Source: Nonlabens xiamenensis (GTDB taxonomy: Bacteria; Bacteroidota; Bacteroidia; Flavobacteriales; Flavobacteriaceae). Taken from it: a DNA stretch of 64,000 nucleotides. Positions within the stretch are counted from its first letter, which is position 1; each line of letters starts with the position of its first letter. Under the pieces are notes generated by a model that did no database searches, had not been told where the DNA came from, and saw only the letters and a list, made by a program, of their open reading frames with translations. Shown here piece by piece: positions 624-60,370 of the stretch. The translations under genes were made by a program, and so were the position numbers. Location: positions 248,001 to 312,000 of the forward strand of contig NZ_RMVE01000003.1 in the NCBI RefSeq assembly GCF_003865345.1, written 5' to 3'.

Positions 624-1389
624 TATATTCGGTCTGGTAGGCAAGCGTTTGGACTATAGTTTTTCGCGAGCCTACTTCTCAGAGAAATTTGAAAAACTTA
701 AGCTGACTGACCATGAGTACCGCAATTTTGAAATGGATCGAGAATATTTGTTAAGCCGCTTTCGCGAAAGCGTGACCTACGACCCTCAAACCCGTACAAC
801 AAACGGAAAGTCTGAAATTATCAGAGGGCTCAACGTTACTATTCCCTACAAAGAGGACATGTTGAAGGTGGTCGATCATATCAGCGAGGAAGCCAAAGCC
901 ATCGGTGCCATCAATACAGTGGTCATCGAGGATAATATCTGGACCGGACACAACACGGATTGCTATGGTTTTGCCAAAAGCCTAGAAAATTTACCTCCTA
1001 TTCAGAAAAATGCACTCATTCTGGGAACAGGAGGAGCCTCTAAAGCAATTGCCTATACCCTAGAAGCCTTACAGATACCCTACCTTTTTGTGAGCAGGAA
1101 TCCGCAGGATGAATACATTATAAGTTACACCGCTTTAAACAAGGAGGTAATGCAGAGTGTAGGATTGATCGTTAACACAACGCCGCTTGGTGTGACGCCA
1201 GAGGTACATTTACGTCCAGAAATCCCTTATGAATGTTTAAATGAATCCCATCTGTTATACGATCTCGTGTACAATCCAGCCCAAACCATGTTCATGAAAT
1301 TGGGACAGCGACATGGTGCCCAAGTGACCAATGGATACCAAATGCTTGTGCATCAAGCAGAAAAAGCCTGGGAACTTTGGAACAACTAA
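598..1389 (+). CDS. aroE: Shikimate dehydrogenase (NADP+)
   Basis: Reduces 3-dehydroshikimate to shikimate in aromatic amino acid synthesis, in the cytoplasm. The 263-residue protein has the shikimate-binding motif YSFSRAYF (residues 20-27), NVTIPYK with catalytic Lys85, NTDCYGF with Asp111, and the nucleotide-binding loop GTGGASKA (143-150). The start overlaps the DUF368 gene by 26 bp. Oddity: the perfect palindrome GCTTTCGCGAAAGC (758-771) encodes residues 54-58 (RFRES) in a stretch before NVTIPYK (about residues 50-77) that seems longer than in flavobacterial AroE proteins as I remember them, suggesting a local insertion. Function is clear; the insertion is an inference. Confidence 0.95.
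   Translation: METKQIPSSIFGLVGKRLDYSFSRAYFSEKFEKLKLTDHEYRNFEMDREYLLSRFRESVTYDPQTRTTNGKSEIIRGLNVTIPYKEDMLKVVDHISEEAKAIGAINTVVIEDNIWTGHNTDCYGFAKSLENLPPIQKNALILGTGGASKAIAYTLEALQIPYLFVSRNPQDEYIISYTALNKEVMQSVGLIVNTTPLGVTPEVHLRPEIPYECLNESHLLYDLVYNPAQTMFMKLGQRHGAQVTNGYQMLVHQAEKAWELWNN
758..771. repeat. Iterated palindrome copy 1 (in aroE)
   Basis: Perfect GCTTTCGCGAAAGC, extended by one base on each side to a 16-bp palindrome; read as RFRES. Confidence 0.95.
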
Positions 1390-1445
1390 ATGCCCGATAG
1401 ATTGTACTTCCTGCCGAATCTCTTTATCTTGCCATCCCATTAGAA

Positions 1446-3572
1446 ATGATTGATATGGAACAGAAGGACAACCTGCAGGATGCAGACGGAACAAAAGACA
1501 CCTTGGAAAATGCCATGGTAGAAGAATCACTACCCAAAAACCCTGAAACAGGTATGGAGACCGTTGCTGTTGATGGAAAGGATGAAGATGCGCTACGGGA
1601 AGGAACTAATAAACCGGCCGGGAGAAAGGAAGATGAATCCACAACACACGAGGATGCGATCGTAGAGGAGAAAACTACGGTTGAACAATCTGAAGATACC
1701 ATTGTTGACCTGGATGAGGACGAGGATGAAGATGAGGATCCGAATGACACCAGCGCCAATGAAATCCCTGAAAAAGATTACGATGCGATGGACATGCCCG
1801 AATTGATTAAAGAATTGAGGCATTTGATGCAAGAGTATCCGATCAATAGTTTCCGCAGTCAGGCCGAAGATATCAAGAAAGCTTTTGAAGCTGCTGATGC
1901 TGAAAACAAAAAAGAAGCCCAGGAAAAATTTCAGGAGGAGAATCCGCCGAGTGATGATCCATTGGCTCCCGAATTTGACTATAACAACCCGCTGGCATCA
2001 GAATTTAACGATCTTCATGCCTTATACCGCAAACAAAAAGGTCAATTTCAACGTGATCGTCGCAAACAACAGGAGAAGAATCTTGAAAAGCGTCGCGAAA
2101 TCATCGAAGGTATCAAACAGCTGATCGATGAAGAAGAGAATATTGGTACTACCTTCAAGAAGTTTCATGCTTTACAAGATGAATGGAAAGCTACCGGAAA
2201 TATTCCTCATGATGCCTATAATATCACTTGGGAAGACTACCGACTGGCTGTACAAAATTTCTATGACTATATTGACCTGAGCAAGGAATTAAGGGACAAG
2301 GATTTTGAACGCAATCTCGAGTTCCGTAAAAAGATAATTGCCAGGGCCGAAGAATTGGGTCAAGAAGAAAACATTCACAAAGCTTTACGTGAGTTACAAG
2401 AGCTTCACCGGATGTGGAAAGAAGACTCAGGGCCTGTTGCCAAGGAATTACGTGATCCTATCTGGGATGAATTCAGCGCTGCCACCAAAGTTATTCACGA
2501 CAAACGACAAGCCTATTATGAGGAGCGTGATAAACTGGCGGCCAAAAATCAGGTGGTCAAAGAAAATATCATTGCCGAAATAGCCAAAATCACCCAAGAA
2601 GGAGCTAAAAATCACAGGGAATGGCAAGAAAGATTGCAAGAGATGAAGGTACTGCGCGAACTCTTTACCACGACAGGACCTGCACCAAAGGCAGTTAATA
2701 ACGATCTGTGGAATAAGTTCAGGGCCGGTACGAGAGCCTTTAATAAAGCCAAGAACAATTATTACAAAGATTTAAAACGCGAGCAACAAGAGAATCTTGA
2801 AAAAAAGATGAAACTGATTGAAATCGCCGAAGAACATCAGGATAACGAGAACTTTGCAGAAGGTCTTGAAATCATGAAGCGTATTCAGGCCGATTGGAAA
2901 AAGATAGGTCATGTCCCTCGCAAAGACAGTGATAAAATCTGGAAGAGATTCCAAAAAGCATGTAATGCCTTTTTTGACAAGAAAAACGCCAAAAAGAAAG
3001 AGGATAGTAAGGAAGAGTTGGCCAATTACGAAGCCAAAATAAAAGTATATGACGCTTTAAAGGAAATGCTGCCACAAGATGATAAAAAAGCTATGCAGGC
3101 CGATATCCAAAAGCACATGGAAGAATGGGCGGCGATAGGTCGCGTTCCTTATAGCAAGAGACATATCCAGGATAAATTTGAAAAGTTATTGAAGGCAAAA
3201 CTTAAAGCGGCGGGTATGAACGCTGTTGATGCCGAAATGATGAAATATCAAAATAAACTATCCAGCCTGGAAAATGGTAGCGAAAGAGACTTTAAAAATG
3301 AGCGTTTCTACCTTTCCAAACGCAGAGATGAAATTCAGAAGGAAGCATTGCAATTGGAAAACAACCTACAATTCTTTAACGCAAAGGATGACAAGAATCC
3401 TTTATTAGTGGCCCAACGTAAAAACATTGAGGAGCTAAACAAAGAATTGGAGGTCATTAAGGAAAAACAAAAGCAACTCAATATTCTTCAACGACAGTTA
3501 GAGAGAGAAGAAAATGAAGCCCAAGCTGAAGAGGAAGATAACAAGCCTACTGAAGAGGATAGCAAGGATTGA
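1446..3572 (+). CDS. DUF349 repeat protein, acidic N-terminus and coiled coil
   Basis: A 708-residue cytoplasmic protein. Residues 1-110 are acidic and low-complexity (Asp/Glu runs around 89-98). Five DUF349 repeats follow at roughly 205-280, 290-360, 370-440, 450-512 and 525-587, each with a W/L-x-x-x-G-x-x-P pattern such as WKATGNIP and WKKIGHVP and a later aromatic-rich helix. Residues 600-690 are a charged coiled coil with a Glu-rich tail. The biochemical role of DUF349 is not established as far as I know. It lies 56 bp after aroE. Start at 1446; an in-frame ATG three codons later (1455) is equally possible. A hairpin about 100 bp downstream probably ends its transcript. Confidence 0.9.
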   Translation: MIDMEQKDNLQDADGTKDTLENAMVEESLPKNPETGMETVAVDGKDEDALREGTNKPAGRKEDESTTHEDAIVEEKTTVEQSEDTIVDLDEDEDEDEDPNDTSANEIPEKDYDAMDMPELIKELRHLMQEYPINSFRSQAEDIKKAFEAADAENKKEAQEKFQEENPPSDDPLAPEFDYNNPLASEFNDLHALYRKQKGQFQRDRRKQQEKNLEKRREIIEGIKQLIDEEENIGTTFKKFHALQDEWKATGNIPHDAYNITWEDYRLAVQNFYDYIDLSKELRDKDFERNLEFRKKIIARAEELGQEENIHKALRELQELHRMWKEDSGPVAKELRDPIWDEFSAATKVIHDKRQAYYEERDKLAAKNQVVKENIIAEIAKITQEGAKNHREWQERLQEMKVLRELFTTTGPAPKAVNNDLWNKFRAGTRAFNKAKNNYYKDLKREQQENLEKKMKLIEIAEEHQDNENFAEGLEIMKRIQADWKKIGHVPRKDSDKIWKRFQKACNAFFDKKNAKKKEDSKEELANYEAKIKVYDALKEMLPQDDKKAMQADIQKHMEEWAAIGRVPYSKRHIQDKFEKLLKAKLKAAGMNAVDAEMMKYQNKLSSLENGSERDFKNERFYLSKRRDEIQKEALQLENNLQFFNAKDDKNPLLVAQRKNIEELNKELEVIKEKQKQLNILQRQLEREENEAQAEEEDNKPTEEDSKD

Positions 3573-3668
3573 CACAAAGTGAGAGGTGAATTTTATTTTC
3601 AAGTGAAAGCTTGACATTGACTTGCTATTTGTCTCCCAACACCCATATCCTTTTCATTAAACTTTTAC

Positions 3669-3700
3669 AAAATGCACCGAAATTGATCGGTGCATTTTTT
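3669..3700 (+). terminator. Intrinsic terminator after the DUF349 gene
   Basis: Arms AAATGCACCGA and TCGGTGCATTT flank a 6-nt loop and are followed by a T run. A GTG codon at 3690 lies inside this hairpin, which argues against that codon as the start of the following gene. Confidence 0.8.
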
Positions 3701-3722
3701 ATTTTTAAAGAAAGTTCAGTTG

Positions 3723-4418: not shown

Positions 4419-4565
4419 CAAAATAGTTGAATGTCCTGTGAACAATACATGGATTAGATATGTCGTTTGCCTTGTTTAAGTGGGCGATTGTCCATTATTA
4501 TTGTTATTCCTTTATTTATAAAGGGAATTTCCCTTAATTTAAACGAAAGCAAAAATCCCTAAATT

Positions 4566-6201: not shown

Positions 6202-7206
6202 TTAAAGAGAGTTGACTTTTTCGGCCAGATCAACCAACTTATTGGAGTACCCAAATTCGTTGTCGTACCAGCTGACCAACTTAAAGAAAGTTGGATTCAA
6301 CTGGATGGCAGCTTCGGCATCATATATACTTGTGCGGTCATCACTCACAAAGTCTTGGGACACTACAGCTTCATCGGTGTAACCTACGACACCTTTCATG
6401 TCTCCCTTAGCTGCTTTCGCGAAAGCGGCATTGATCTCCTCCAAACTGGTTTCCTTTTCCAATTTTACCGTAAGGTCTACCACAGAAACATCGACTGTAG
6501 GCACCCTAAAAGCCATTCCGGTCAGTTTACCTTTCAATTCCGGGATTACCTTAGTTACGGCTACGGCAGCACCAGTAGAAGTAGGTATGATGTTATTCAT
6601 AGCGCTACGGCCTAATCTATAGTTTTTCTTACTAGGTGCATCTACGGTCTGTTGAGTAGCGGTGGTAGCGTGCACAGTAGTCATCAATGCTTCCTGGATC
6701 CCAAAATTATCGTTCAGAATCTTGGCCATCGGTGCAAGACAGTTGGTCGTACAAGAGGCATTGGAAACGATATTGTGATCTGCGGTCAGTTCATTATCAT
6801 TTACCCCCATTACAAACATAGGAGCTGTTTTTGATGGAGCAGAAATCACTACTTTTTTGGCACCGGCATCCAAGTGAGCCTGTGCATTGTCTAGATCTGT
6901 AAAGATTCCGGTACAGTCGGCTACCACATCTACATCTACCTCATTCCATTTCAGGTTTTTGGGATCACGTTCAGAAGTTACGCGCACTTCTACACCATCT
7001 ATAACCAAGTTTCCGTTTTTGATCTCAATGCTTCCACCATATCTCCCGTGTACCGAGTCATATTCTAACAAGTAGGCCAATTGCTCTACATCTACCAAGT
7101 CGTTGATGGCAACTACTTCTACATTTTCTCTTTTTAGAGTCGCTCTAAACACAATACGACCTATACGACCGAATCCATTGATTCCTAATCTTAGTTTTTT
7201 ACTCAT
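6202..7206 (-). CDS. gapA: Type I glyceraldehyde-3-phosphate dehydrogenase
   Basis: Oxidises glyceraldehyde-3-phosphate to 1,3-bisphosphoglycerate in glycolysis. The 334-residue protein has the dinucleotide fold INGFGRIGR (residues 9-17), Asp36 in the INDLVD turn which favours NAD, and the active site SCTTNC with Cys152, plus His179 in TTVHAT. The palindrome GCTTTCGCGAAAGC (6413-6426) encodes AFAKA at residues 261-265. The usual sequence here is close to AAFKKAAEG, so the palindrome seems to have been built in place without changing the length. It is downstream of pfkA, in the same direction. Confidence 0.97.
6413..6426. repeat. Iterated palindrome copy 2 (in gapA)
   Basis: Perfect GCTTTCGCGAAAGC, read on the minus strand as AFAKA. 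Confidence 0.95.
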
Positions 7207-10180: not shown

Positions 10181-11251
10181 ATGGAAATCAAGCAACTCCA
10201 TCCACTTACCTCATTGAGGTTTGTATTTGCCTTGATGGTATTTTTTTCTCATTTGGCTTACCTAGAAGAAAGTCAAAATGAAGGACTGCAACAATTATAT
10301 ACACAAGTTTTTTCACAAGGATATATAGGTGTCGGGTTCTTCTTTATTTTGAGTGGATTTATCCTGACTCATGTGTATTCTGCCAGATGGCAAGAAAGGA
10401 AACAAGAACGCCGGAAGTTTTATATCCTTAGGATAGCAAGAATATATCCTTTACATCTATTGACCTTGTTGGTCGCGGCTCCCCTTATGTTGTACAACAT
10501 AGTTTGGGGCCCCGAATTGTTAGCCATCAGTGTGAGCAACTTGACTTTGACACAGGCATTTATTCCAGATATTGACTATAATTTTTCTTATAACGGAGTT
10601 TCTTGGAGCATCAGTTGCGAACTCTTCTTTTATTTATGTTTTCCTTTTTTATTGCTGTGGTGGCGTCAACTTAAAGCACTGAAGTACTTCCTATTTTTTA
10701 TTCTTACGGCCTTACTGTTAGTGCTGATGATCACCATCCCTGCCAGTTGGCATAACTCCTTGTTCTACGTGCACCCCTTATCCCGAATTCTTGATTTTAT
10801 TTTGGGTATATTTCTTTACGAATTGTATCGCTACATCAAACGTATCAACTTCAGTACGATGCAAGGCTCCTTCTTAGAGCTGGGAGGGATATCCTTATTG
10901 GTATTGTTTTTTTGCTTTCGCGAAAGCGTGCCCGACAGCTTTCTTCACTCCATCTATTATTGGATACCTATGTGCGTCATCATAGCCACATTTTCCTTGC
11001 AAAGAGGTTATATTTCCCAACTGCTGAGTAGGAAACCAGCCATCTGGTTAGGCGAAATTAGTTTTGGTTTCTATATGTGGCATCATCTGGTCCTTCGATA
11101 TTTTCATGCGATCAACCGTCGATTAAATTTTATGGAGAACGAAATTGTTATCGGGCTTACCTGTTTATTCTTCACCATACTCATTGCAGGGTGTAGTTTT
11201 CAATACTTTGAACGGCCTTCCAATAAATGGGTGAGGACTTTCTTAAAGTAG
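10181..11251 (+). CDS. Acyltransferase 3 family membrane protein (OafA-like)
   Basis: A 356-residue membrane O-acyltransferase-type protein with about ten hydrophobic helices. The N-terminal helix carries LRFVFALMVFFSHLAYLE with the conserved histidine (residue 24), followed by GYIGVGFFFILSGFILTHVY and RIARIYPLHL, the standard family signature. Such enzymes O-acetylate cell-surface glycans or exported sugars; the acceptor here is unknown. The palindrome at 10914-10927 encodes CFRES near residue 247, between transmembrane segments. It stands alone on its strand, 36 bp after the symporter gene. Confidence 0.9.
   Translation: MEIKQLHPLTSLRFVFALMVFFSHLAYLEESQNEGLQQLYTQVFSQGYIGVGFFFILSGFILTHVYSARWQERKQERRKFYILRIARIYPLHLLTLLVAAPLMLYNIVWGPELLAISVSNLTLTQAFIPDIDYNFSYNGVSWSISCELFFYLCFPFLLLWWRQLKALKYFLFFILTALLLVLMITIPASWHNSLFYVHPLSRILDFILGIFLYELYRYIKRINFSTMQGSFLELGGISLLVLFFCFRESVPDSFLHSIYYWIPMCVIIATFSLQRGYISQLLSRKPAIWLGEISFGFYMWHHLVLRYFHAINRRLNFMENEIVIGLTCLFFTILIAGCSFQYFERPSNKWVRTFLK
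10914..10927. repeat. Iterated palindrome copy 3 (in acyltransferase gene)
   Basis: Perfect GCTTTCGCGAAAGC, read as (C)FRES in a loop between hydrophobic helices. Confidence 0.95.
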
Positions 11252-12483: not shown

Positions 12484-12588
12484 AGCCAAATGATGACAAG
12501 GAATTCATAAATATAAATAGTCGAAATTCATGAATTACGACATGCTAATCCTTAACAGTTTATTCATCTGCCCTCGGTTTTAATGCAG

Positions 12589-12596
12589 TACTTTTG
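12589..12596 (+). promoter_or_regulatory. Putative -7 box for the endonuclease gene
   Basis: TACTTTTG fits TAnnTTTG and ends 19 nt before the ATG at 12616. An earlier in-frame ATG at 12583 lies upstream of this box, supporting 12616 as the true start. Confidence 0.5.
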
Positions 12597-12615
12597 CAAA
12601 AATTTAAGCTCTCAA

Positions 12616-14580
12616 ATGCGCATACTTTTATTTTCTATTGCGGTTATTTTCGCTTTCGCGAAAGCACAATCCCAAGTTATCATTAACGAACTAGACGCCG
12701 ATACACCTGGTGTAGATACCGCCGAGTTTGTCGAATTAAAAACTCCGTCGCCATTTACGTCGCTCAACGGCTATGTGATGGTTCTTTTTAACGGTAGCAG
12801 TTCAAGCACCTCCGGAATGGGACGCAGCTACTTTGCCTTGGACCTGGATGGGGCAGTTACCGATGCCAACGGTCTATATGTGATTGGAGGAAATGACGTC
12901 GTACCCGTTCCAGACAGAGTATTTTCTCAAAACACCTTACAAAATGGGGCCGATGCGATCGCCATTTATCAGGGAAATGCGACCGACTGGCCAGATCGTA
13001 CTTTTGCGACTACGGTAAACTTAGTAGATGCGGTGATTTATGACACGGATGATGCAGACAACGCCGATTTAATGAACTTGCTCAATATTTCCAGTCAGTG
13101 GAATGAAAATGAGAATGGTCTTAAAACTACTGAATCGCTTCAACGGAAGTCAGATGGTACTCTTGAAGCCAAAACCCCGACACCGCATTCACTTAACGAT
13201 GCTATGTCTCCAACCTATACTGGAGTCGATTTTGCGATCAGCACCAGCGAATTAAATGAACCAGATACCTTTAATATTGTGTTTTCGTTGACCCAAAGCA
13301 TTTCTAGTGATTTTAATTTGGGCTTTTCTCTTAACAACGGTAATTTCAATACGGCCGACTATACAGGAGCTACTTCTTTTACCATTCCCGCAGGTCAGAC
13401 CAGTGTGAATCTTTCCTTCAGCATCGTAGATGATATGATTGATGAAGGTGATGAAACCATGCGTATTAATATAGGAAACAACCTTCCCGCTGGATTTAAA
13501 CGAATCAAGGACAATCAGGAAGTCTTTGTCATCGATAATGATTTTCAGGTTGCCGGTTATGGAACCCCACTCGCTCCTACCTACGGAAACGTGGCCAGTA
13601 CGGCACCGACCAATTACTACAATAGCCTCAATGGATTATCTGGTGCAGCCTTGGAAGAAGCGATCACAGCAATCATCGCAGAAGAAAATGTGGTCCGTAT
13701 CCATACTTATGATGATGTCACCGAAATACTCAAGGATGCCGATGTTTCTCCATTGAACTCTAACAAAGTATGGTTGTTCTATACCGAACAAGAACGTAGA
13801 ATCATTGATTTTCAGACGACGAGCGACAATACGGGGAAATGGAATCGCGAACATATTTACTCACGATCTCGAGGAGGATTCTTTGATATAGAATACGATC
13901 GTGTGAATGACGGTATTGCGGTTTGGACAGAAACTAATGCGGATAGCTTGAGGCATGGTCAAAGTGACGCTCATCACCTAAGGGCAGTTGACGGTCCTGA
14001 AAATAGTTCCAGAGGGAACAGCGACTATCCCGAATACAATGGACCAAGCGGCTCCCAAGGAAGTTGGCAAGGCGATGTAGCCAGGGCACTTTTCTATATG
14101 GACCTCAGGTACAATAACCTAGGTCTGGTGAATGGAAATCCACCCAATACTACAGTTGGACAGTTAGGCGATCTTGCCACCTTGATCCAATGGCATCGCA
14201 ACGATCCACCAGACGATTTTGAAATGAACAGAAACAATGTCATTTATACCTGGCAAATCAACCGTAACCCATTTATCGACCTTCCAGACCTTGCAGAATA
14301 TATCTATGGAAATCAAATAGGACAGAACTACACGCTTTCGGAAGATCGGGATTCATTAAATTCAGTTGTTGTCGCTCCTAATCCCTCTAATAGTTACTTT
14401 TTCGTAAGAAATATTCTGTATCCCACCCAACTCGCCATCTATGATATGATGGGAAGACTGGCCTTGCAAAGAGACCTGGATAGAGATACGAATATCATAC
14501 ACGACCTGGCTCCTGGGACCTATGTAATCCGTTTGACCGCCATGGATCTAAGTACTACCAAAAAACTGATCGTACAATAA
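12616..14580 (+). CDS. Secreted endonuclease I family nuclease with lamin-tail-like and Calx-beta domains and T9SS tail
   Basis: A 654-residue exported nuclease. Order: signal peptide (1-18); lamin-tail-like domain beginning VIINELDADTPG (about 20-190); Calx-beta-like domain (about 205-310, ending DEGDETMRINIG); endonuclease I domain with NREHIYSRSRGG and SDAHHLRAVDG giving the His/Asn catalytic features; and a C-terminal T9SS sorting domain (VAPNPSNSYFF, YDMMGR, PGTYVIRL, KKLIVQ). It probably degrades extracellular DNA for nutrients or biofilm turnover. The palindrome at 12652-12665 encodes AFAKA at the end of the signal peptide, creating the AKA|Q cleavage motif. Start 12616 gives a standard signal peptide, whereas the earlier ATG does not. 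Confidence 0.9.
   Translation: MRILLFSIAVIFAFAKAQSQVIINELDADTPGVDTAEFVELKTPSPFTSLNGYVMVLFNGSSSSTSGMGRSYFALDLDGAVTDANGLYVIGGNDVVPVPDRVFSQNTLQNGADAIAIYQGNATDWPDRTFATTVNLVDAVIYDTDDADNADLMNLLNISSQWNENENGLKTTESLQRKSDGTLEAKTPTPHSLNDAMSPTYTGVDFAISTSELNEPDTFNIVFSLTQSISSDFNLGFSLNNGNFNTADYTGATSFTIPAGQTSVNLSFSIVDDMIDEGDETMRINIGNNLPAGFKRIKDNQEVFVIDNDFQVAGYGTPLAPTYGNVASTAPTNYYNSLNGLSGAALEEAITAIIAEENVVRIHTYDDVTEILKDADVSPLNSNKVWLFYTEQERRIIDFQTTSDNTGKWNREHIYSRSRGGFFDIEYDRVNDGIAVWTETNADSLRHGQSDAHHLRAVDGPENSSRGNSDYPEYNGPSGSQGSWQGDVARALFYMDLRYNNLGLVNGNPPNTTVGQLGDLATLIQWHRNDPPDDFEMNRNNVIYTWQINRNPFIDLPDLAEYIYGNQIGQNYTLSEDRDSLNSVVVAPNPSNSYFFVRNILYPTQLAIYDMMGRLALQRDLDRDTNIIHDLAPGTYVIRLTAMDLSTTKKLIVQ
12652..12665. 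repeat. Iterated palindrome copy 4 (in endonuclease signal peptide)
   Basis: Perfect GCTTTCGCGAAAGC encoding AFAKA; the final A-K-A is a signal peptidase I motif. Confidence 0.95.
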
Positions 14581-20133: not shown

Positions 20134-21672
20134 ATGCTTACAAAAGTCTATGGCAGCGCCGTCTTTGGCGTGGAAGCCACTACAATTACCGTAGAAGTCA
20201 ATGCCGATACTGGAATAGGATACCACCTGGTGGGACTACCCGATAAAGCCATCAGTGAGAGTTCCTTCCGCATCACGGCGGCTTTGAAAAATGTGGGCTA
20301 TAAAATGCCTGGCAAAAAACTCATCCTTAACCTATCCCCTGCCGATTTACGTAAAGAAGGAAGTGCTTATGACCTCCCCCTAGCTCTTGGGATTCTCAAT
20401 GCCTCCCACCAGATCAATACAGATAGGTTTGGCGAATTCGTTATTATGGGCGAGCTTTCCCTGGATGGAAATCTGCAACCCATCAAAGGTGCCCTACCTA
20501 TAGCTATCAAAGCCAGGGAAGAAGGTTTTAAAGGCTTTATCTTACCTGCACCAAATGCTCGAGAAGCTGCCATTGTCGATGGACTGGACGTATATGGTGC
20601 TGAAAATATTCTAGAGGTAATTGAATTTTTTACCGGCGAGCGACAATTGGAACCCACGCTAGTAGATACCCGAGAAGAATTTTTTCACGCCCTGGAACAT
20701 CCTGAATTTGATTTTGCCGATGTAAAAGGACAGGAATCCATTAAGCGTTGTATGGAAATTGCGGCAGCCGGTGGCCACAATATCATACTGATAGGACCAC
20801 CTGGAGCTGGAAAAACCATGCTGGCTAAACGGCTGCCTTCCATCCTACCCCCGATGACCTTGCACGAAGCCCTCGAGACTACCAAAATTCATAGCGTTGC
20901 CGGACGCACGCTGGAAAAGTCAGGACTCATGGCCCAACGCCCGTTTAGGAGTCCGCATCACACCATATCTGATGTCGCCTTGGTCGGCGGTGGGGCCTAT
21001 CCGCAACCTGGTGAGATCTCCCTGAGTCATAATGGGGTGCTGTTTTTGGACGAATTACCCGAATTTAAACGCAGTGTGTTGGAGGTGATGCGGCAGCCGC
21101 TAGAAGATCGCGAAGTGACCATTTCCCGGGCCAAGTTCACCGTCACCTACCCTTCTAGCTTTATGCTGGTCGCCAGTATGAATCCTAGCCCAGGAGGTTA
21201 TTTCAATGATCCGGAGGCACCAGTGCAAAGCAGCCCAGCAGAGATGCAACGCTATTTGGGCAAAATCTCTGGTCCATTACTGGATAGGATCGATATCCAT
21301 ATCGAAGTCACCCCAGTACCTTTCGAAAAATTAACCGAAGAACGACCGGCAGAGCGATCCACAGCTATCCGCCAACGGGTCACTGCGGCTAGGGATCTTC
21401 AAACTTCACGCTTTCGCGAAAGCGACAACACCCACTACAACGCACAGATGAGCGTCAAGGAAATACGAAAACATTGTGCCCTTGATCAGGTGAGCAAAGA
21501 CTTGCTGAAGAACGCGATGGAACGATTGAATCTGAGCGCACGCGCCTATGATCGAATTCTAAAGGTAGCCCGCACCATTGCCGATCTGGAAGGACAAACA
21601 GATATTCATTCCCATCACGTGACAGAAGCGATTCAATACCGCAGTTTGGATCGGGATGGATGGTTGGGGTAG
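20134..21672 (+). CDS. comM: YifB/ComM-type Mg-chelatase-like AAA ATPase
   Basis: A 512-residue AAA+ ATPase. The N-terminal domain begins LTKVYGSAVFGVEA and includes IVGLPDKA-type sequence (LVGLPDKAISES), the Walker A is GPPGAGKTMLAKR, Walker B is VLFLDELPEF, and the C-terminal helicase-lid region contains NLSARAYDRILKVARTIADL. In naturally competent bacteria ComM is a hexameric helicase that extends heteroduplex during transformation; in others the role is unknown. The palindrome at 21410-21423 encodes RFRES at about residues 426-430, in the stretch between the last lid motif and the NAQM motif. Monocistronic. Confidence 0.92.
   Translation: MLTKVYGSAVFGVEATTITVEVNADTGIGYHLVGLPDKAISESSFRITAALKNVGYKMPGKKLILNLSPADLRKEGSAYDLPLALGILNASHQINTDRFGEFVIMGELSLDGNLQPIKGALPIAIKAREEGFKGFILPAPNAREAAIVDGLDVYGAENILEVIEFFTGERQLEPTLVDTREEFFHALEHPEFDFADVKGQESIKRCMEIAAAGGHNIILIGPPGAGKTMLAKRLPSILPPMTLHEALETTKIHSVAGRTLEKSGLMAQRPFRSPHHTISDVALVGGGAYPQPGEISLSHNGVLFLDELPEFKRSVLEVMRQPLEDREVTISRAKFTVTYPSSFMLVASMNPSPGGYFNDPEAPVQSSPAEMQRYLGKISGPLLDRIDIHIEVTPVPFEKLTEERPAERSTAIRQRVTAARDLQTSRFRESDNTHYNAQMSVKEIRKHCALDQVSKDLLKNAMERLNLSARAYDRILKVARTIADLEGQTDIHSHHVTEAIQYRSLDRDGWLG
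21410..21423. repeat. Iterated palindrome copy 5 (in comM)
   Basis: Perfect GCTTTCGCGAAAGC, read as RFRES. Confidence 0.95.
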
Positions 21673-23115: not shown

Positions 23116-25587
23116 CTACTCCTCGCCTTTCATTTTTCCGTCGGCAGCATGATCCATAGCTGGTTCGGTTTTGTTTTTTACATATTTCTCCAGCCATTGG
23201 TCTTGTTCCCATAACACGTGTAATATTGACTCCTTGGCGCGGTAGCCGTGACTTTCTTTAGGTAACATCACCAATCTGGCCGTGGCACCAAGACCTTTCA
23301 AAGCATTGAAATAACGCTCGCTTTGTAAAGGGTAAGTACCAGAATTATTATCGGCTTGACCATGAATCAATAGAATAGGCTCGTTAACTTTTTCGGCATT
23401 CATAAACGGAGACATCGTGTTGTAGATCTCAGGAGCCTCCCAGTAATTACGCTCTTCGCTTTGGAACCCAAATGGTGTCAAAGTACGGTTGTAAGCCCCA
23501 GACCTGGCGATTCCTGCCGCAAATAAATCAGAGTGCGCCAGCAGATTGGCGGTCATAAAGGCGCCGTAACTATGGCCTCCGACACCCACTCTATTTCTGT
23601 CGATATAGCCCATGGCGTCCACCGCATCGATCGCTGCTTTGCCGTTGGCCACCAATTGGGGTATAAAGGTGTCGTTAGGCTCCTCCTCACCTTCACCTAC
23701 AATAGGAAAGGCGGCATCATCCAACACAGCATAGCCTTTCATTACCCAATACACAAAGCTTCCGTAATAGGGATATATAAATTCGTTAGGGTTTTGCGTA
23801 TTCTGCCCGGCACTGGCTTTGTCCTTATACTCTCTAGGATAGGCCCAAAGCAACATCGGCAATTTTTCTTTTTTATTTCGGTCGTAATTGGGAGGTAAAT
23901 ACAAGGTAGCACTAAGGTCTAAACCATCATCACGTTGATAGGTGATAACCTCCTTATGCACCTTTTGCAAACCCTCAAATGGATTTTCAAAAAAAGTAAT
24001 CTGTTCGAGATTGTTAGAGTTCAGGTCCCTTAAATAATAGTTGGGGTATGTTGTGGGCGATTCTATACGAACCAACAATTGTCTTTTGTCCATATCAATA
24101 GCTTCCAGCAGACTCTCTTTTTTATCAGTATACAAACTGGTATATAGGCGTTTGGATTTTTGTTTTTTCAGATTGTATTGATCCACAAAAGGAAACTGAC
24201 CCTCTTCTGTAAATCCATCGCCTATCAAATAGGCATTGGAACCATCCAGTTTCAACACGGACCTTTTCCATTTATTTTTGGTCGTGACAAAACTTCCTGG
24301 ATCGGAATAGGCATCTTGATAATTGCGGTCAAAAAGTACTTTGTGAGTTGATTTGTTATCGCTGGGGTCAAATACATAGGTACGTTGGTTCCTGGTATTC
24401 CACCAGTAATCATAAGCAATAGCCGTATGCTCATCCCCATAGAGCACACCGCTGAATCTGTCTTTGGTACGTAAGATTTCTTCTCCATTACCAGGCTTAA
24501 AAGGTGCCTTCCAGGTATACAAGGCATCTCTATGCGCAACTTCTCTCTCTGGGTCACCACCGTCCAAAGCCATCACATAATGCAATTCATGCGGTCGATC
24601 CGCGCGCCAACCCATGGACCGTTTACCTTCACGGGTGGCCATAAATCCTTTAGGCATCTCCTCAATTAATGGGACATCGTTGACCAGGGCCACCAGATCA
24701 CCACCAGCGGTATAAACATGGGTTTTTTCTGGGAATCTGCCGTATGTCACCAAATAAGAAAATGGTTTTTGTAATTGTCTCACGAGTACATGTGTGCCAT
24801 CTGGTGAAAAGGAAACACCTGTGTACATCGCACCGGGCAAGAAATCGCTTTGTGTTCCGTCTAGATTCACCTTGACCAAGCGGCTTAAAGCCAATTGTTC
24901 AAAATTATGCTCGTCTGACGGGTTTTTCAATAAATCCTGATAGGTTCTATTCTGAGCTTTGGAACCATCACTGGTAGAGATGGTTGGCCCGGTAGGAACC
25001 TCAACGCTGGTATCAATCAAGGGTTGACGATCATTGGTAAGCATCTTCACCAGCAGGGATTTCCCATCTTTGAACCAGTCGATAGGACTTCCCATATTAG
25101 CATTGACACTGGCCGTGGTGAGTCGTTTGGCGGTCGCCTTTTCTACATCGAGCACCCATACTTCTGTACCGTTTGAAGTAGTATGCGTCATGGCTACCAT
25201 GGTTTGATCAGGTGACCAGCTGATATTGGAAAGTTGAGGTTGTCCAGGTAGTCCAGTTACGGGTTTTGGTGTTTTGCTGCCTACCGCCTGAACTGCTACC
25301 TTATCGTAAAAAGTGGTACGACTTCCAATATTGGTTTTGGGATTGATACGCAATCCGCCCAGTCGCATTTCCTCTTCAGAGAGTTGCGAGATTGACTTAT
25401 AGGTGTCTCGGTACATCAACACCATGTATTGGGCATCATCATCAATCAATGTCCATGGTGGCCGGTCATAATCGACCAGTTTCATTATTTCTTCAGAGGG
25501 TTTTTGGTAGGTCAATTTTTCCTGTGGGTACGCTTTCGCGAAAGCGAACAAAGTCATACCGAGTAAATAAAAAGACAGGTTTTTCAT
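23116..25587 (-). CDS. Secreted S9 family (prolyl oligopeptidase-like) peptidase
   Basis: An 823-residue exported serine peptidase. A signal peptide (MKNLSFYLLGMTLFAFAKA, about 1-19) is followed by a long beta-propeller region and a C-terminal alpha/beta hydrolase domain. The nucleophile is Ser673 in GGHSYGAF; the acid is in HGQADNNSG and the base in PKESHGY. It likely trims oligopeptides in the periplasm or at the surface. The palindrome at 25532-25545 encodes AFAKA at the end of the signal peptide, giving an AKA|Y processing site. Monocistronic and divergent from mnmE; the C-terminal end is acidic and charged with no T9SS tail. Confidence 0.92.
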   Translation of the reverse strand: MKNLSFYLLGMTLFAFAKAYPQEKLTYQKPSEEIMKLVDYDRPPWTLIDDDAQYMVLMYRDTYKSISQLSEEEMRLGGLRINPKTNIGSRTTFYDKVAVQAVGSKTPKPVTGLPGQPQLSNISWSPDQTMVAMTHTTSNGTEVWVLDVEKATAKRLTTASVNANMGSPIDWFKDGKSLLVKMLTNDRQPLIDTSVEVPTGPTISTSDGSKAQNRTYQDLLKNPSDEHNFEQLALSRLVKVNLDGTQSDFLPGAMYTGVSFSPDGTHVLVRQLQKPFSYLVTYGRFPEKTHVYTAGGDLVALVNDVPLIEEMPKGFMATREGKRSMGWRADRPHELHYVMALDGGDPEREVAHRDALYTWKAPFKPGNGEEILRTKDRFSGVLYGDEHTAIAYDYWWNTRNQRTYVFDPSDNKSTHKVLFDRNYQDAYSDPGSFVTTKNKWKRSVLKLDGSNAYLIGDGFTEEGQFPFVDQYNLKKQKSKRLYTSLYTDKKESLLEAIDMDKRQLLVRIESPTTYPNYYLRDLNSNNLEQITFFENPFEGLQKVHKEVITYQRDDGLDLSATLYLPPNYDRNKKEKLPMLLWAYPREYKDKASAGQNTQNPNEFIYPYYGSFVYWVMKGYAVLDDAAFPIVGEGEEEPNDTFIPQLVANGKAAIDAVDAMGYIDRNRVGVGGHSYGAFMTANLLAHSDLFAAGIARSGAYNRTLTPFGFQSEERNYWEAPEIYNTMSPFMNAEKVNEPILLIHGQADNNSGTYPLQSERYFNALKGLGATARLVMLPKESHGYRAKESILHVLWEQDQWLEKYVKNKTEPAMDHAADGKMKGEE
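25532..25545. repeat. Iterated palindrome copy 6 (in S9 peptidase signal peptide)
   Basis: Perfect GCTTTCGCGAAAGC encoding AFAKA at a predicted signal peptidase I site. Confidence 0.95.
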
Positions 25588-27228: not shown

Positions 27229-27906
27229 TTATGATGTCAGAAAATATTGATATATCTGATAAAGAAATAATCCCAAACCAGCGATAACCAGGTACCAGTT
27301 GACGGCTTTATAAAAAGCTTGGTATTGGGTCCGCTTTCGCGAAAGCGAGATCATAAAAACTATCGGAATCAACGCCAGCACCTGGCCTATTTCCACTCCT
27401 AGATTAAAGCACAAGATTTTTGACAGAAATTCATCACTACCAGTTTCAAAGGATTGTAGCCGTGTGGATAATCCAAAGCCGTGAATCAAGCCAAAAAAGC
27501 CAACCATTAAAAGAAGATTTGGCGTTTTAATACCTATACGTTGAAAGCTATCTAAATTTTCCAGCCCTTTGTACAACACACTTAGTGCAATGACAGCGTC
27601 CACCAGATATTCGTTGGCACTAATGCCCAAATAAGTAGCGCCAATTAAGGTCACACAATGCCCTAGGGTAAAAACACTGATGAACTTAAGGATATCCTTA
27701 AAGCTTCTTAAATAAAAAACTACACCGGTCAGAAATAACAAATGGTCGTAACCGGTGAGCATATGTGTCGCTCCTACCCTAATGTATGCCATCAGACCTC
27801 CTTGCGACAATAGTGCCTGATCTGCGCTGGTCACATCATGGGCAAATGACAAGAAGGGTAATAAGATCAAGACCGCAGCAAGCGTCATTTGCCTGGATTT
27901 AGGCAT
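27229..27906 (-). CDS. HupE/UreJ family metal permease-like protein
   Basis: A 225-residue protein with a signal peptide (residues 1-22, mature end HDVTSADQ) and six hydrophobic segments. Conserved histidines sit in GYDHLLFLTG (His55), LGHCVTLIG (His83) and FFGLIHGFGLS (His142), typical of HupE/UreJ proteins, thought to take up nickel or cobalt. Its start overlaps the His-rich DUF4198 gene by 8 bp, so the two are coupled and likely handle one metal. The palindrome at 27333-27346 encodes LSRKR in the last cytoplasmic loop. Metal identity is an inference. Confidence 0.85.
   Translation of the reverse strand: MPKSRQMTLAAVLILLPFLSFAHDVTSADQALLSQGGLMAYIRVGATHMLTGYDHLLFLTGVVFYLRSFKDILKFISVFTLGHCVTLIGATYLGISANEYLVDAVIALSVLYKGLENLDSFQRIGIKTPNLLLMVGFFGLIHGFGLSTRLQSFETGSDEFLSKILCFNLGVEIGQVLALIPIVFMISLSRKRTQYQAFYKAVNWYLVIAGLGLFLYQIYQYFLTS
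27333..27346. repeat. Iterated palindrome copy 7 (in HupE-like gene)
   Basis: Perfect GCTTTCGCGAAAGC, read in the third frame as LSRKR in a basic loop before the last helix. Confidence 0.95.
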
Positions 27907-31334: not shown

Positions 31335-32231
31335 ATGGCGACTAGTTTAAAAAAAACAAAGATCATCACTATCGTGTTGATCGTCATGAGTTCGATCGGA
31401 CTTTATCTGGCTTTTGCCCTTAAAGCACAAGCCCCTGCTAAAGTTTCCAATGAACATTTTGAAGTTGTAAAACGCTGGAATCTTCCCGCTAAGCTCAACG
31501 AGATAAGCGGCATCGCTTGGTTAAGTAATGATCAAATCGCTTGCGTAGAAGATGAAGACGGGATCATATTTATTTATGATCTACAACAAAACAAAATAAT
31601 TCAATCCGTTGATTTTGCTGGTAAGGGTGATTTTGAGGGTCTCGCATTAAATCAAGGCGATGCCTATGCCATACGTAGCGACGGACTTCTTTTTGAAATA
31701 CCTCGCTTTCGCGAAAGCGATCCAAAAAGCATTCCGCATAAAACCGTTTTTTCTTCCTATAATAATATCGAAAGTCTTTTTTATGATGCTGCCAACCATA
31801 GGCTATTGACCATGCCCAAAGACAAAGATCTTTCCCAAACAGAAAAAAAAGGGATTTATGTGGTTGAATTGCCTAGTTTTCATATGGACAATACGCCAAA
31901 GATTAGCGTTGATTTCAACCATCCAGATTTAACCGCGGAGCAAATTCGACTGCTTAAGAGTAATTTTAATCCGTCTGATATTGCGATTCATCCGAAAACT
32001 AAAGAAATTCTCATCCTGCAGGGAAAAACACCTTTCCTCTATTTCCTGGAATCTGACGGCCGATTTAAAAAAGGATTACCGCTTCCAATCGCTGGTTTTC
32101 CGCAGCCTGAAGGTATATGTTTCAGTCCAGAGGGAAGACTTTTTATTTCTAATGAATCCACCACTTCAGGTCCTAATATTATAGAAATCCGACTTAAAAA
32201 TCCTGAAACAATGGATGAGTTGTCAGAATGA
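31335..32231 (+). CDS. SdiA-regulated-type beta-propeller protein, membrane-anchored
   Basis: A 298-residue protein with an N-terminal membrane segment (about 10-28) and then a propeller-like domain opening with WNLPAKLNEISGIAWLSND and DFEGLALNQGDAYAIRSDG, characteristic of the SdiA-regulated family, named from quorum-sensing regulated genes in enterobacteria; no such regulation is implied here. The palindrome at 31705-31718 encodes RFRES at about residues 124-128, just after a blade turn. It may be co-transcribed with the DUF3810 gene 15 bp downstream. Biochemical role unknown. Confidence 0.8.
   Translation: MATSLKKTKIITIVLIVMSSIGLYLAFALKAQAPAKVSNEHFEVVKRWNLPAKLNEISGIAWLSNDQIACVEDEDGIIFIYDLQQNKIIQSVDFAGKGDFEGLALNQGDAYAIRSDGLLFEIPRFRESDPKSIPHKTVFSSYNNIESLFYDAANHRLLTMPKDKDLSQTEKKGIYVVELPSFHMDNTPKISVDFNHPDLTAEQIRLLKSNFNPSDIAIHPKTKEILILQGKTPFLYFLESDGRFKKGLPLPIAGFPQPEGICFSPEGRLFISNESTTSGPNIIEIRLKNPETMDELSE
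31705..31718. repeat. Iterated palindrome copy 8 (in SdiA-regulated-type gene)
   Basis: Perfect GCTTTCGCGAAAGC, read as RFRES. Confidence 0.95.
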
Positions 32232-39799: not shown

Positions 39800-41263
39800 T
39801 TAAGATTTGAGAACCCAGGTATCCTTGGATCCGCCACCTTGTGATGAGTTGACGATCAGATTGCCTTTTTGAAGAGCAACTCGCGTCAATCCGCCTTTCA
39901 GCACAAAATCCTTGTCTTTACCCAAAATGGTATAGGTTCTCAAATCCACATGTCGTGGTTCAAAGGAGTTGGACTCTTCGATATAGGTAGCATGAACGGA
40001 CAGTGACATGATAGGTTGGGCGATATATTTACGTGGACTGGCAGCAATCGTTTTCTTGACCTCTTCTATTTCGTCCTTTGTCAGTCTATTTCCTATGGAA
40101 ATTCCATAACCTCCCGCTTCATCAACTGGTTTAATCACCAATTTGTCAATGTTGTTCAGCACATATTTCAATTCGTCGGGCCTGCTGCAATGGTAAGTGT
40201 GAACGTTATTCAGTATGGGTTCTTCATTGAGGTAATATTTGATGATATCTGGCATATAGGTATAGATCGCCTTATCATCTGCTACTCCAGTTCCGGGAGC
40301 ATTTACCAACGTCACATTGCCTTTCGCGTAAGCGGAAAAAAGACCAGGAACTCCGAGCGTCGAATCTGGTTTAAATTCCATGGGATCTATAAACTGGTCG
40401 TCAATACGCCTGTATATGACATGTACTCTTTGGGCGCCATTGATGGATTGCATATATACCTTATCTTTTTCTACATATAAATCTCTTCCTTCTACCAGCT
40501 CCACTCCCATGGCTTTTGCCAAATAGGAATGTTCGTAATAAGCTGAATTATAAATCCCTGGTGTAATGACCACACAATTGGGTTGGTCTACGCCTTCTGG
40601 TTTGACCGTTTGCATAATCTCCAGTAAATTTTGTGCGTAATCGGTAACCGTAAATGTTTTATAGGCGTCAAAAACTCCGAATAGAGCCTTTTTCAAAGCT
40701 GTGCGATTACAAATAACGTAGCTTACCCCGGAAGGGCATCGTATGTTGTCTTCCAAGACATAATATTTGCCGTCACTGTGCTTGATCAGATCTGTGCCCG
40801 AGATATGATTATAGATGCCGCCAGGTGGCTCCAGTCCATTCATTTGACTCAGATAATTGGCACTCGAATTGATCAATTCTATGGGCACAATTCCATCCTT
40901 GATAATTTTCTTGTCGTGATACACATCATGTAGAAAATGGTTAAGGGCCTTGCTGCGTTGCAAAACTCCTTTTTCAATATGATCCCACTCACTTGAATCT
41001 ATAATGCGGGGAAATAGATCAAAGGGGAATATTTTTTCCTTGATTTCTTGATCACCATATACTTGAAAAGTGATACCTTGATTAAAGAAGGATGATTTTG
41101 CATTGTTATTGAGGCTGGCAAAATCTTCCACCGTATGGCCGCTGTAGATTTCAAATAATTTCTTGTAGACTTCTTTTACATTTCCATCTTCTTCAAAAAT
41201 TTCATCAAAAAATTCCGAATGTTGTTGATAACAAGAAAAAATGGGGTGTTCGGATACATTCAT
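39800..41263 (-). CDS. Circularly permuted type 2 ATP-grasp protein
   Basis: A 487-residue protein with motifs YVLEDNIRCPSGVSYVI (ADP/Mg region), CVVITPGIYNSAYYEH, RRIDDQFIDPMEF and VIKPVDEAGGYGISIG, as in the DUF404/DUF407 ATP-grasp family. It probably ligates a carboxylate to an amine, such as an amino acid or peptide, using ATP. It is the first gene of the operon with alpha-E and transglutaminase genes. Near 40320-40333 there is a two-mismatch version of the iterated palindrome (read as AYAKG), possibly a decayed copy or chance. Substrate unknown. Confidence 0.9.
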   Translation of the reverse strand: MNVSEHPIFSCYQQHSEFFDEIFEEDGNVKEVYKKLFEIYSGHTVEDFASLNNNAKSSFFNQGITFQVYGDQEIKEKIFPFDLFPRIIDSSEWDHIEKGVLQRSKALNHFLHDVYHDKKIIKDGIVPIELINSSANYLSQMNGLEPPGGIYNHISGTDLIKHSDGKYYVLEDNIRCPSGVSYVICNRTALKKALFGVFDAYKTFTVTDYAQNLLEIMQTVKPEGVDQPNCVVITPGIYNSAYYEHSYLAKAMGVELVEGRDLYVEKDKVYMQSINGAQRVHVIYRRIDDQFIDPMEFKPDSTLGVPGLFSAYAKGNVTLVNAPGTGVADDKAIYTYMPDIIKYYLNEEPILNNVHTYHCSRPDELKYVLNNIDKLVIKPVDEAGGYGISIGNRLTKDEIEEVKKTIAASPRKYIAQPIMSLSVHATYIEESNSFEPRHVDLRTYTILGKDKDFVLKGGLTRVALQKGNLIVNSSQGGGSKDTWVLKS

Positions 41264-52758: not shown

Positions 52759-53271
52759 TTAATAACGCGTTGCAATTACGTTTTCATGATGCTTATAATG
52801 ACCGGCAATAATGAAAGGGATCACTCGAGCACTCATTGAATGACCACTGGCGCTCCCCATTCTACTCAACCATTCTTCTGGGACTCCCTGAAAAAGGGAT
52901 CTGGTAGCAGCTCTGGTAACTTTCAGTGATTCTGTGAGATCCGCTTTCGCGAAAGCGTGTCCCACCAATGCTTCAGAAAAGATATCTTGATCAAATCCCG
53001 AAAGCGAAGTTTGATCGCCACGCATAAAGCGTAATGCTCTATATGCAAAAATGCGCTCCGTATCAATGTTGTGCATGATCACTTGTCCTACAGTCCATTT
53101 ATCAGGGGCGTAGGAATGATCTAGTGGCAGCTGAAGTTTATCCAGAAACAACAAACTACGCTCCAAAGAATCGTTCAACACCTGATCTATGGAAAGATGA
53201 TCTGGCGACATGGACAGATACTTCTCAAAATAAGGCGCGTATTCAGAGGAATCAATATCTGCTTTAGTCAT
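52759..53271 (-). CDS. DinB superfamily protein
   Basis: A 170-residue four-helix protein of the DinB/YfiT type. Putative metal ligands are the His in VIMHNIDTERIFAYR and those in AGHYKHHENVI near the C-terminus. Members act as thiol-dependent S-transferases or stress proteins, and the activity here is unknown. It is adjacent to the Lrp/AsnC regulator gene (no bases between the stop of one and the start of the other), so the two form an operon. The palindrome at 52943-52956 encodes AFAKA at about residues 106-110. Confidence 0.82.
   Translation of the reverse strand: MTKADIDSSEYAPYFEKYLSMSPDHLSIDQVLNDSLERSLLFLDKLQLPLDHSYAPDKWTVGQVIMHNIDTERIFAYRALRFMRGDQTSLSGFDQDIFSEALVGHAFAKADLTESLKVTRAATRSLFQGVPEEWLSRMGSASGHSMSARVIPFIIAGHYKHHENVIATRY
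52943..52956. repeat. Iterated palindrome copy 10 (in DinB-like gene)
   Basis: Perfect GCTTTCGCGAAAGC, read as AFAKA. Confidence 0.95.
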
Positions 53272-57006: not shown

Positions 57007-57119
57007 TCCATCTTGACAAGAAACAACACAGATTAACGTCTTTTTAAGTAAATTGATACTTAAATGATGAATAAGGTAGAAATGTAAAATTGTATATTCT
57101 CTACTTTGCGATAAACGGA

Positions 57120-57563: not shown

Positions 57564-57614
57564 GAATAGGTTTTTCTATTTAATCTTTACAACCAACGAT
57601 TTTCAATTTCCTTA

Positions 57615-60293: not shown

Positions 60294-60356
60294 ACACCAA
60301 ATTCCGATTGAGGTTTAAGAATTGTCTGTTTATTTATTTTGAATGAGGCAGTTATC

Positions 60357-60370
60357 GCTTTCGCGAAAGC
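60357..60370. repeat. Iterated palindrome copy 11 (parE-parC intergenic)
   Basis: Perfect GCTTTCGCGAAAGC, the only one of the eleven copies outside a protein-coding gene. Confidence 0.95.

Follow-up and report, generated by a model that had tools for sequence, protein, structure and literature searches.

Why a genome should carry the same palindrome many times over, mostly inside its genes, is the question raised by the window analysed here, a 64,000-nt stretch of the Nonlabens xiamenensis genome. The window contains 11 exact copies of the 14-bp palindrome GCTTTCGCGAAAGC; all 11 coordinates reported in a first-pass annotation of this DNA were confirmed, as was its observation that ten of these perfect copies lie within genes in three reading frames. 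Five copies are read in the frame RFRES and are located at 758..771 (ORF 598-1389, plus strand), 10914..10927 (ORF 10181-11251, plus), 21410..21423 (3′ portion of a YifB/ComM-type ORF, 20134-21672, plus), 31705..31718 (ORF 31335-32231, plus), and 36232..36245 (3′ portion of an amidohydrolase-type ORF, 33414-36368, plus; one mismatch in genus member G010 and lost in G019). Four further copies are read as AFAKA, at 6413..6426 (ORF 6202-7206, minus; four mismatches where G019 aligns), 12652..12665 (close to the start of ORF 12583-14580, plus, whose product includes a T9SS sorting domain), 25532..25545 (close to the start of ORF 23116-25587, minus), and 52943..52956 (ORF 52759-53271, minus), and one is read as LSRK, at 27333..27346 (ORF 27229-27906, minus). 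The 11th copy, at 60357..60370, is intergenic and lies between a topoisomerase IV subunit A-type gene (57615-60293) and a GyrB/ParE-type gene (60396-62273). A copy was found within approximately 100 bp upstream of the topoisomerase IV subunit A-type gene in 9 of 20 other loci of the genus (two of these 20 start inside the gene); no copy was present at this locus in nine outgroup loci. When up to two mismatches were allowed, the window presented 12 matches (11 exact, none with one mismatch, and one with two), as compared to a mean of 0.14 across 100 dinucleotide shuffles of the window.

Abundance and clade distribution

The source genome contains 553 exact copies per strand, as compared to none for the reversed control, and 681 versus 24 matches with up to two mismatches, in agreement with the hundreds of genomic copies expected from the window. 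Markov models of order 2 to 5, built with the copies masked, predicted 0.00005-0.0005 exact copies for the window (11 observed) and 0.0007-0.003 for a 980-kb part of one contig (161 observed); without masking, the largest expectation (order 5) was 0.03 for the window and 0.32 for the 980 kb. The comparison with a Markov background that the first-pass annotation had proposed thus places the observed number far above expectation.

All 22 other sampled Nonlabens genomes carry the palindrome (288-857 copies each), as do two further genus-level lineages of the same family (408 and 857 copies); the density in these carriers is approximately one copy per 4-9 kb. A 23-mer that supports the genus name matched an uncultured Nonlabens record at two places, BBFL7, and Dokdonia sinensis. 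The remaining genomes among the 397 sampled from the family presented a maximum of 19 copies, and those outside the family a maximum of one. One Nonlabens chromosome (G019) presented sites in all 17 stretches sampled (4-9 per 20 kb), with no site-free void across these 340 kb of its 2.9 Mb. Among nine neighbouring non-carrier genera sampled, one has its own strongly iterated motif, and a weak trace was seen in another; as a strong motif appeared in only one of the nine, these data hardly point to "dialects" of the signal in neighbouring genera. As a string, the 14-mer was not found in the literature searched, whose coverage excluded most subscription journals.

Structure, spacing, and conservation of the site

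While the first-pass description was right about the copies and their number, it missed a longer site, its even spacing, and its restriction to this clade. The 14-mer GCTTTCGCGAAAGC lies in the middle of a DNA signal with two-fold symmetry that extends beyond 14 bp; this signal consists of a 16-bp core, CGCTTTCGCGAAAGCG, and outward flanks of about 15-18 bp on each side that are G-poor and A/C-rich, and it was seen in 133 intergenic sites and, to the left and right alike, in 229 coding sites. The site is also strict, as the 980 kb with 161 exact sites contained 25 one-mismatch sites, and two-mismatch sites were at background level (7 versus 7 for the reversed control in 800 kb); since these counts match, the two-mismatch neighbour at 40320..40333 in the window probably represents chance. 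The two flanks did not covary consistently with each other (z of at most 2.5 over 20 positions in 219 sites), and an extended hairpin was rejected on this basis. A mini-hairpin, GCGAAAGC, acting as a single-strand signal was rejected as well, because it does not fit the one-mismatch spectrum, in which 13 of 32 changes fall at one loop position and none at the adjacent loop position. We infer with high confidence that the palindrome is recognised on duplex DNA and has very probably been selected for this.

Sites are evenly dispersed. In stretches of seven genomes (382 sites summed), three gaps of <1 kb were observed versus 66.3 expected, and the pair correlation was 0 for distances of <1 kb, rose to 0.26 between 1 and 2 kb, and was about 1 further out; one-mismatch sites avoid exact sites (median distance 2969 versus 1573 bp, p = 4e-4, n = 25). 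Based on gene calls from a simple codon-usage caller built for this analysis, 244 of the 382 sites are intragenic, with all reading frames used and with indifference to transcription. Intergenic densities were 0.74 sites per kb in divergent gaps (35 sites in 47.6 kb), 0.64 in convergent gaps (23 sites in 36.0 kb), and 0.58 and 0.64 in the two codirectional kinds. An RNA-level element (e.g., a hairpin, terminator, or processing site), palindromic so that either transcript would carry it, is very improbable given that sites are no scarcer in divergent than in convergent gaps, that flanks do not covary, and that so many sites are inside genes, although the sequence can, on inspection, be folded as a short hairpin and one site gain in G010 falls where G005 has a different inverted repeat. 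Foreign DNA was rejected as an account of the longest site-free gaps, six of which were inspected by eye; the longest contained ordinary-looking genes and one of the six had lower GC. Inspection by eye of close site pairs (109 bp in G002 and 270 bp in G004) for an autoregulated reader gene revealed housekeeping-type genes only.

Among genus members, 102 ordered site comparisons could be aligned, and 82 of them showed the exact palindrome at the corresponding position, a figure in which each pair counts twice, the 254 unaligned of 356 comparisons are dropped, and exact sites may themselves have seeded alignments. The aligned DNA of these members is 71-74% identical to the window, and background 14-mer identity was 1.6-4.9% (25% for one close pair). 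At orthologous loci, copies are thus mostly present where the DNA aligns. Maintenance at the DNA level, to which the earlier argument that protein selection alone does not explain the sequence had pointed, is supported. All 20 non-exact cases had another copy 0.9-4.3 kb away; however, this does not demonstrate that lost sites are replaced nearby, because spacing alone gives about the same distances (random points have a median distance of 1.6 kb to a site). One case scored as gone (G019 61738, as compared to the source genome, G000) aligned only to another copy.

Methylation, mobile DNA, and candidate readers

A methylation role for the palindrome, one of those suggested by the first-pass annotation, was not borne out. 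Among 13 carriers, PF00145 was found in six, PF01555 in eight (including a fragment with a stop in G002), and PF02086 in four, and G008 and G010 presented none of these three methyltransferase families; a methyltransferase basis was rejected and methylation is disfavoured, since no tested family occurs in all 13 carriers and the three are jointly absent from two of them. To our knowledge, a methyltransferase site would also be shorter than a 16-bp core plus flanks, and all 11 occurrences of TTCGCGAA in the window are inside the 14-mer, with none elsewhere. It is therefore quite unlikely that the palindrome is a by-product in which a methyltransferase and nicking repair would ratchet a methylated core (TCGCGA or CGCG) into a longer palindrome, even though excerpts of Elhai 2015 (PMC4390886) tie cyanobacterial HIPs to cognate methyltransferases, in a model where HIPs become saturated near one site per 1000 nt. 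The likeness to HIP1 holds as a situation, as both are highly iterated palindromes far above Markov expectation and the function of HIP1 is described there as unsettled (PMC4390886, excerpt); HIP1 differs in being an 8-bp sequence, GCGATCGC, with cognate methyltransferases, while the palindrome has 14-16 bp plus flanks and none of the three families is universal among its carriers.

The palindrome is also present in mobile islands and in phage contigs, with 40 copies in 299 kb over 11 viral contigs, some of temperate type (one Mu-like and one with an integrase); these contigs were picked among the matches listed (80 loci of at least 120 stretches) because of low GC, more than one copy, or flanks of the typical kind, their hosts are inferred, and several represent variants of one phage by ORF lengths. 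This makes the palindrome a tracer for phages and islands that lived in this clade. It is absent from the Nonlabens phages P12024S and P12024L, whose records give Persicivirga as host, with Nonlabens in the organism field, and whose host may itself lack sites. Density near that of Escherichia coli Chi and carriage by mobile DNA would suit a Chi-type marker of self versus non-self or of recombination, read by a nuclease or recombination complex and protecting resident DNA. However, Chi sites are short, single-strand, and direction-dependent, and a palindrome of 14-16 bp, together with its absence from these two phages (subject to the same caveat on their host), makes such a marker unlikely.

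ParB_N presented a single match in 20 of the 23 genus genomes, including the source genome (the count covers the genus, not the further carriers G264 and G280), with extra matches in G015, G018, and G019; a second, Noc-like ParB as the reader was rejected, as none was found in these 20 genomes. Canonical parS-like sites are present in the source genome (two in stretch L023), and no reader protein was found in the approximately 29% of this genome that was read. The Noc sites of Bacillus subtilis are likewise palindromes of ~16 bp scattered on the chromosome (PMC4331003 and PMC8429893, excerpts), but they number ~70 and are absent near the terminus (PMC4331003, excerpt), whereas the palindrome has >500 copies, no void in the stretches sampled, and one ParB in 20 of 23 genomes.

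Uptake signal and chromosome organisation as competing readings

Weighing these analyses, we tentatively favour a role of the palindrome in natural transformation, as a signal for the uptake of self DNA and a palindromic equivalent of USS and DUS. A DNA receptor would read the palindrome as a dimer or in either orientation, and site-bearing fragments would be preferentially taken up and recombined, which would let newly arisen sites spread. Local exclusion would follow if little were gained from a second site within about 1.5 kb, and phages and islands, once integrated, would pick up sites like other resident DNA. The uptake role suggested in the first-pass annotation is thus the best single reading; the ComM gene to which it pointed carries little weight in itself, because sites are everywhere. 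The source genome encodes a protein of YifB/ComM type and one resembling ComF, which scored below curated cut-offs, while ComEC and DprA were not seen in the ~29% of the genome searched with regular expressions. According to excerpts of PMC8459023, Riemerella, placed in Flavobacteriaceae by that paper, presents natural transformation with ComEC, DprA, and ComF, and a YifB mutant shows lowered transformation. Literature on Nonlabens palindromes or phages contained nothing on competence among the matches listed, and no work joining DNA uptake sequences, Flavobacteri-, and palindromes was found in the literature searched.

Several features of known uptake sequences are shared by the palindrome. 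USS in Haemophilus influenzae has many exact, relatively evenly spaced copies (~1 kb apart) with a core and AT-rich flanking tracts (PMC7811141, excerpt), and it is carried by temperate phages, as HP1 and HP2 each contain 17 USS cores (in 32.0 and 31.0 kb, respectively) versus 3 reversed controls each. USS differs in its asymmetric 9-bp core at ~1 per kb, while the palindrome is strict, has 14-16 bp and symmetric flanks, and is ~4-9 times sparser. DUS in Neisseriaceae is clade-specific and a tracer of foreign islands, but it has 12 bp, is asymmetric, and occurs roughly once per 400-1100 bp, whereas the palindrome is one sequence throughout its clade with few signs of dialects; Neisseria genomic islands are often DUS-poor (PMC7371117, excerpts, for DUS and islands), unlike the Nonlabens phages and islands that carry the palindrome, which counts against the uptake reading. 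REP elements are dispersed palindromes too, but usually extragenic by definition (PMC12306157, excerpt), in contrast to the many intragenic sites here. As for features of uptake sequences, dispersed even copies and a core with flanks were found, and an asymmetric core was not. Uptake sequences known to us are not palindromes; strict palindromy would rather suggest an intracellular protein that binds as a symmetric dimer, against the uptake reading. The lower density than that of USS, the strictness of the site, the failure to see ComEC and DprA in the part of the genome searched, and the scarcity of dialects also weigh against it.

Because this strict palindromy is the chief objection to an uptake signal, a chromosome-organising protein is a close rival. 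A clade-specific nucleoid protein that, as a symmetric dimer at ~300-860 sites, would contact or bend ~50 bp and organise or anchor the chromosome every few kb is a possibility that we consider somewhat doubtful; prophages and islands would carry sites because they are resident in that chromosome. Two-fold symmetry with flanks that do not covary is expected of two independent half-site contacts, and the sharp mismatch threshold, the largely exact sites at 71-74% aligned identity, the uniform distribution, and the indifference to transcription are all consistent with such a protein. However, we know of no nucleoid protein with so many strict long sites, the ParB_N counts and the search for a reader provided no candidate, and HP1 and HP2, which carry USS in a like manner, show that temperate phages can bear such sites without a nucleoid protein of this kind.

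The chromosome is probably addressed by >500 strict operator-like copies and a symmetric reader, serving either DNA uptake or the organisation of the nucleoid; neither a palindromic, sequence-specific uptake system in Bacteroidota nor nucleoid organisation through hundreds of strict sites is known to us from an earlier case. Few bacterial groups are known to have iterated species-specific DNA signals, and the Nonlabens palindrome represents a longer, stricter, and clearly delimited example than HIP1 in another phylum, restricted in the samples searched to this genus and two other lineages of its family. Because core, flanks, exclusion, and clade limits are defined, why genomes carry one palindrome hundreds of times becomes a directly testable question. 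If this reading is true, the palindrome would also mark this clade as the origin of resident phages and travelling islands.

Sequence and copy number of the site

The 11 copies of the 14-bp palindrome GCTTTCGCGAAAGC listed by the first-pass annotation are all exact and correctly placed, and its exclusion of chance was upheld by Markov models (order 2–5, copies masked) that predict ≤0.0005 copies in the window. Allowing up to two mismatches added one site, none of the one-mismatch neighbours occurs in the 64-kb window, and all 11 occurrences there of the octamer TTCGCGAA lie within GCTTTCGCGAAAGC. The window also encodes a T9SS sorting domain, which fits Bacteroidota. The hundreds of genomic copies foreseen by the annotation were indeed present; across 13 contigs totalling 3.68 Mb, the complete assembly holds 553 exact copies and none of the reversed 14-mer used as control, and at ≤2 mismatches there are 681 sites versus 24 control sites. 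In 800 kb of one contig, sites with 0, 1, 2, and 3 mismatches numbered 130, 21, 7, and 41 for GCTTTCGCGAAAGC and 0, 0, 7, and 33 for the control; because the 2- and 3-mismatch counts resemble the control, only exact and one-mismatch sites are clearly above background.

A G directly follows GCTTTCGCGAAAGC in 86–89% of sites; with the C that symmetry places in front, the core becomes CGCTTTCGCGAAAGCG. Outward from CGCTTTCGCGAAAGCG on either strand, G falls to 5–9% at positions 4–7 while A and C rise, and the bias has faded by about position 18. This flank signal is present at 133 intergenic sites (G at +1 in 95%, A at +2 and +3 in 68%) and, alike on the upstream and downstream sides, at 229 coding sites; it is therefore a DNA signal, and a coding effect can be ruled out as its source. 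No consistent covariation between the two halves was found among 219 sites, a result more in keeping with independent contacts at two half-sites than with an extended hairpin. Of the 32 one-mismatch sites, 12 are changed at the outermost pair and 13 at a single inner pair, where A to G accounts for 10; these are the main places at which change is tolerated. We regard GCTTTCGCGAAAGC as almost certainly a selected, symmetric recognition site in duplex DNA.

Placement, spacing, and conservation

In stretches of seven carrier genomes (i.e., genomes rich in the 14-mer), 244 of 382 sites lie within genes; outside genes the number of sites per kb is 1.6- to 14-fold higher than inside. Divergent, convergent, and codirectional gaps show similar densities, and transcription is therefore not what matters for placement. 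The three reading frames claimed previously are borne out, all three codon phases being used (53, 30, and 23 of 106 genic sites). Genic sites within 150 bases of a start numbered 27 of 106, versus 14.6 expected (800 kb); the window copies at 12652 and 25532, both in the AFAKA frame, are close to protein starts, as if fitted into signal peptides.

Only 3 gaps of <1 kb separate the 382 sites, versus 66.3 expected. In a separate pair-correlation analysis, values were 0 at distances of <1 kb, 0.26 at 1–2 kb, and about 1 at greater distances; the spacing is thus one of short-range exclusion without periodicity. The exclusion is not absolute, as one pair in a same-genus genome (G002) is just 109 bp apart. 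One-mismatch sites likewise keep away from exact copies, behaving as if functional. Around the chromosome of another genus member (G019), each of 17 sampled 20-kb stretches contained 4–9 sites.

At orthologous places in five genus members, where aligned DNA is 71–74% identical to the window, copies are mostly kept: the exact site is retained in 82 of 102 alignable ordered comparisons, a figure that leaves out 254 unalignable ones (356 in total) and is biased upward if exact sites seed alignments. Other 14-mers in these alignments are identical in 1.6–4.9% (25% in the close pair G005/G010). Where the site is not exact (20 cases), the closest alternative copy is 0.9–4.3 kb away, which is not evidence for nearby replacement of lost sites, since random points in the source genome lie a median of 1.6 kb from a site. 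Among 13 site differences inspected, 11 were usably aligned; nine involve substitutions only and two have gaps, G005 carrying a different inverted repeat at one of the latter. Upstream of a topoisomerase subunit gene, a copy is found within about 100 bp in 9 of 20 other genus loci, and no copy occurs anywhere in nine outgroup loci. In two assemblies (G017:C14 and G001:C24), a topoisomerase IV subunit A-type gene is in at least two pieces with stops between, perhaps through assembly errors.

Distribution among genomes and mobile DNA

Absence from close relatives, which the first-pass annotation would have held against its proposal, was not observed: all 22 same-genus genomes in the relatives sample hold 288–857 copies, while six of the 76 others have 1–6 and 70 have none. 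A 23-mer extension of the site was matched twice in a single uncultured Nonlabens record (478 copies of the 14-mer) and once each in Flavobacteria bacterium BBFL7 (551) and Dokdonia sinensis SH27 (857), four places in all. Among 397 genomes of the family, 80 have at least one copy, and the only rich ones are the genus (4/4 sampled), G264 (408 copies), and G280 (857, at the same listed places as in D. sinensis SH27); the next highest has 19. In the phylum sample (395 genomes), the maximum outside the family is one copy, in eight genomes. The trait is common to Nonlabens and two lineages assigned by the database to other genera, which may have acquired it by common descent or by transfer.

In samples of 80 kb from each of nine non-carrier genera, one (G033) showed its own strong iterated octamer, TTCCGAAG, with 77 copies versus 8.7 expected, on both strands (46/31) and unevenly spaced (CV 0.85); G360 shows a weak excess of TTCCGAAG (12 versus 1.6). 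Mild 10-mer excesses were seen in G047 (TGGGATTTTG, 12 versus 0.3) and G048 (TTTTCTGAAA, 13 versus 2.0), and nothing comparable in the remaining genera sampled. With one strong and one weak case among nine genera, iterated signals are not general in the family. A 20-kb stretch of G033 that carries Nonlabens palindromes (L230, G033:C18) has none of that genome's own CTTCCGAAG nonamers, which number 24 in 80 kb of other G033 sequence; close to this stretch is a ParB_N reading frame of 616 aa.

At least 80 viral loci contain the 14-mer. Eleven contigs selected from these have 2–7 copies each (40 in 299 kb); one is Mu-like, its transposase sharing 51% identity with the transposase of Winogradskyella phage Peternella, another encodes an integrase, and another weakly resembles Cellulophaga phage Ingeline (66% over 12% of the query). 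In a less selected 18-mer scan, 12 of 13 viral contigs, several of them variants of one phage, had at least two copies in the sequence analysed. Two named Nonlabens phages with no annotated integrase (P12024S and P12024L) have no site within two mismatches. For comparison, HP1 and HP2, two temperate phages of Haemophilus, have 17 cores of the Haemophilus uptake sequence (USS) each (0.53–0.55 per kb; reversed controls, 3 each), and this carriage follows the same pattern as the palindrome in phage contigs.

Candidate readers and possible roles

The suggested methylation role found no support: of 13 carriers, 6, 8, and 4 have the three methyltransferase families tested, respectively, and none of the three is present in G008 or G010, so that no family is universal and all were rejected as the reader, the protein presumed to recognise the site. 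A second ParB was likewise rejected for the 20 of 23 genus genomes that lack one; no reader was found. As claimed, the window encodes a YifB/ComM-type protein; a ComF-like protein (L036) scored below curated cut-offs. Regular-expression searches alone, covering about 29% of the genome, gave no match for ComEC or DprA.

The site could be a self-DNA uptake signal, a reading that we prefer tentatively because its copy number, even spacing, core and flanks, temperate-type phage carriage, and clade restriction match USS and the uptake sequences of Neisseriaceae (DUS). This much of the annotation's uptake proposal stands; however, the known cases are asymmetric and the palindrome is not, and therefore it cannot be classed as USS or DUS. 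Nor can it be classed as HIP1, the cyanobacterial iterated palindrome, or as the Noc-binding sites of Bacillus subtilis (NBS). The palindromic form, the strictness of the site, and a density lower than that of USS/DUS point instead to binding by a nucleoid protein, a reading that we consider somewhat less likely.

Low counts in other genera are often clustered. In both G289 and G234, one element has four copies with the same spacing, and a 933-bp copy pair is also present in G175, G152, and G161; the products of the G289 element are of metal efflux and copper resistance type (L292–L296). Neisseria islands are often DUS-poor and DUS dialects have been used to trace islands (PMC7371117), a use that parallels these palindrome-bearing elements; on such a metal/copper resistance-type island in other genera, the palindrome may be a tracer of a past host.
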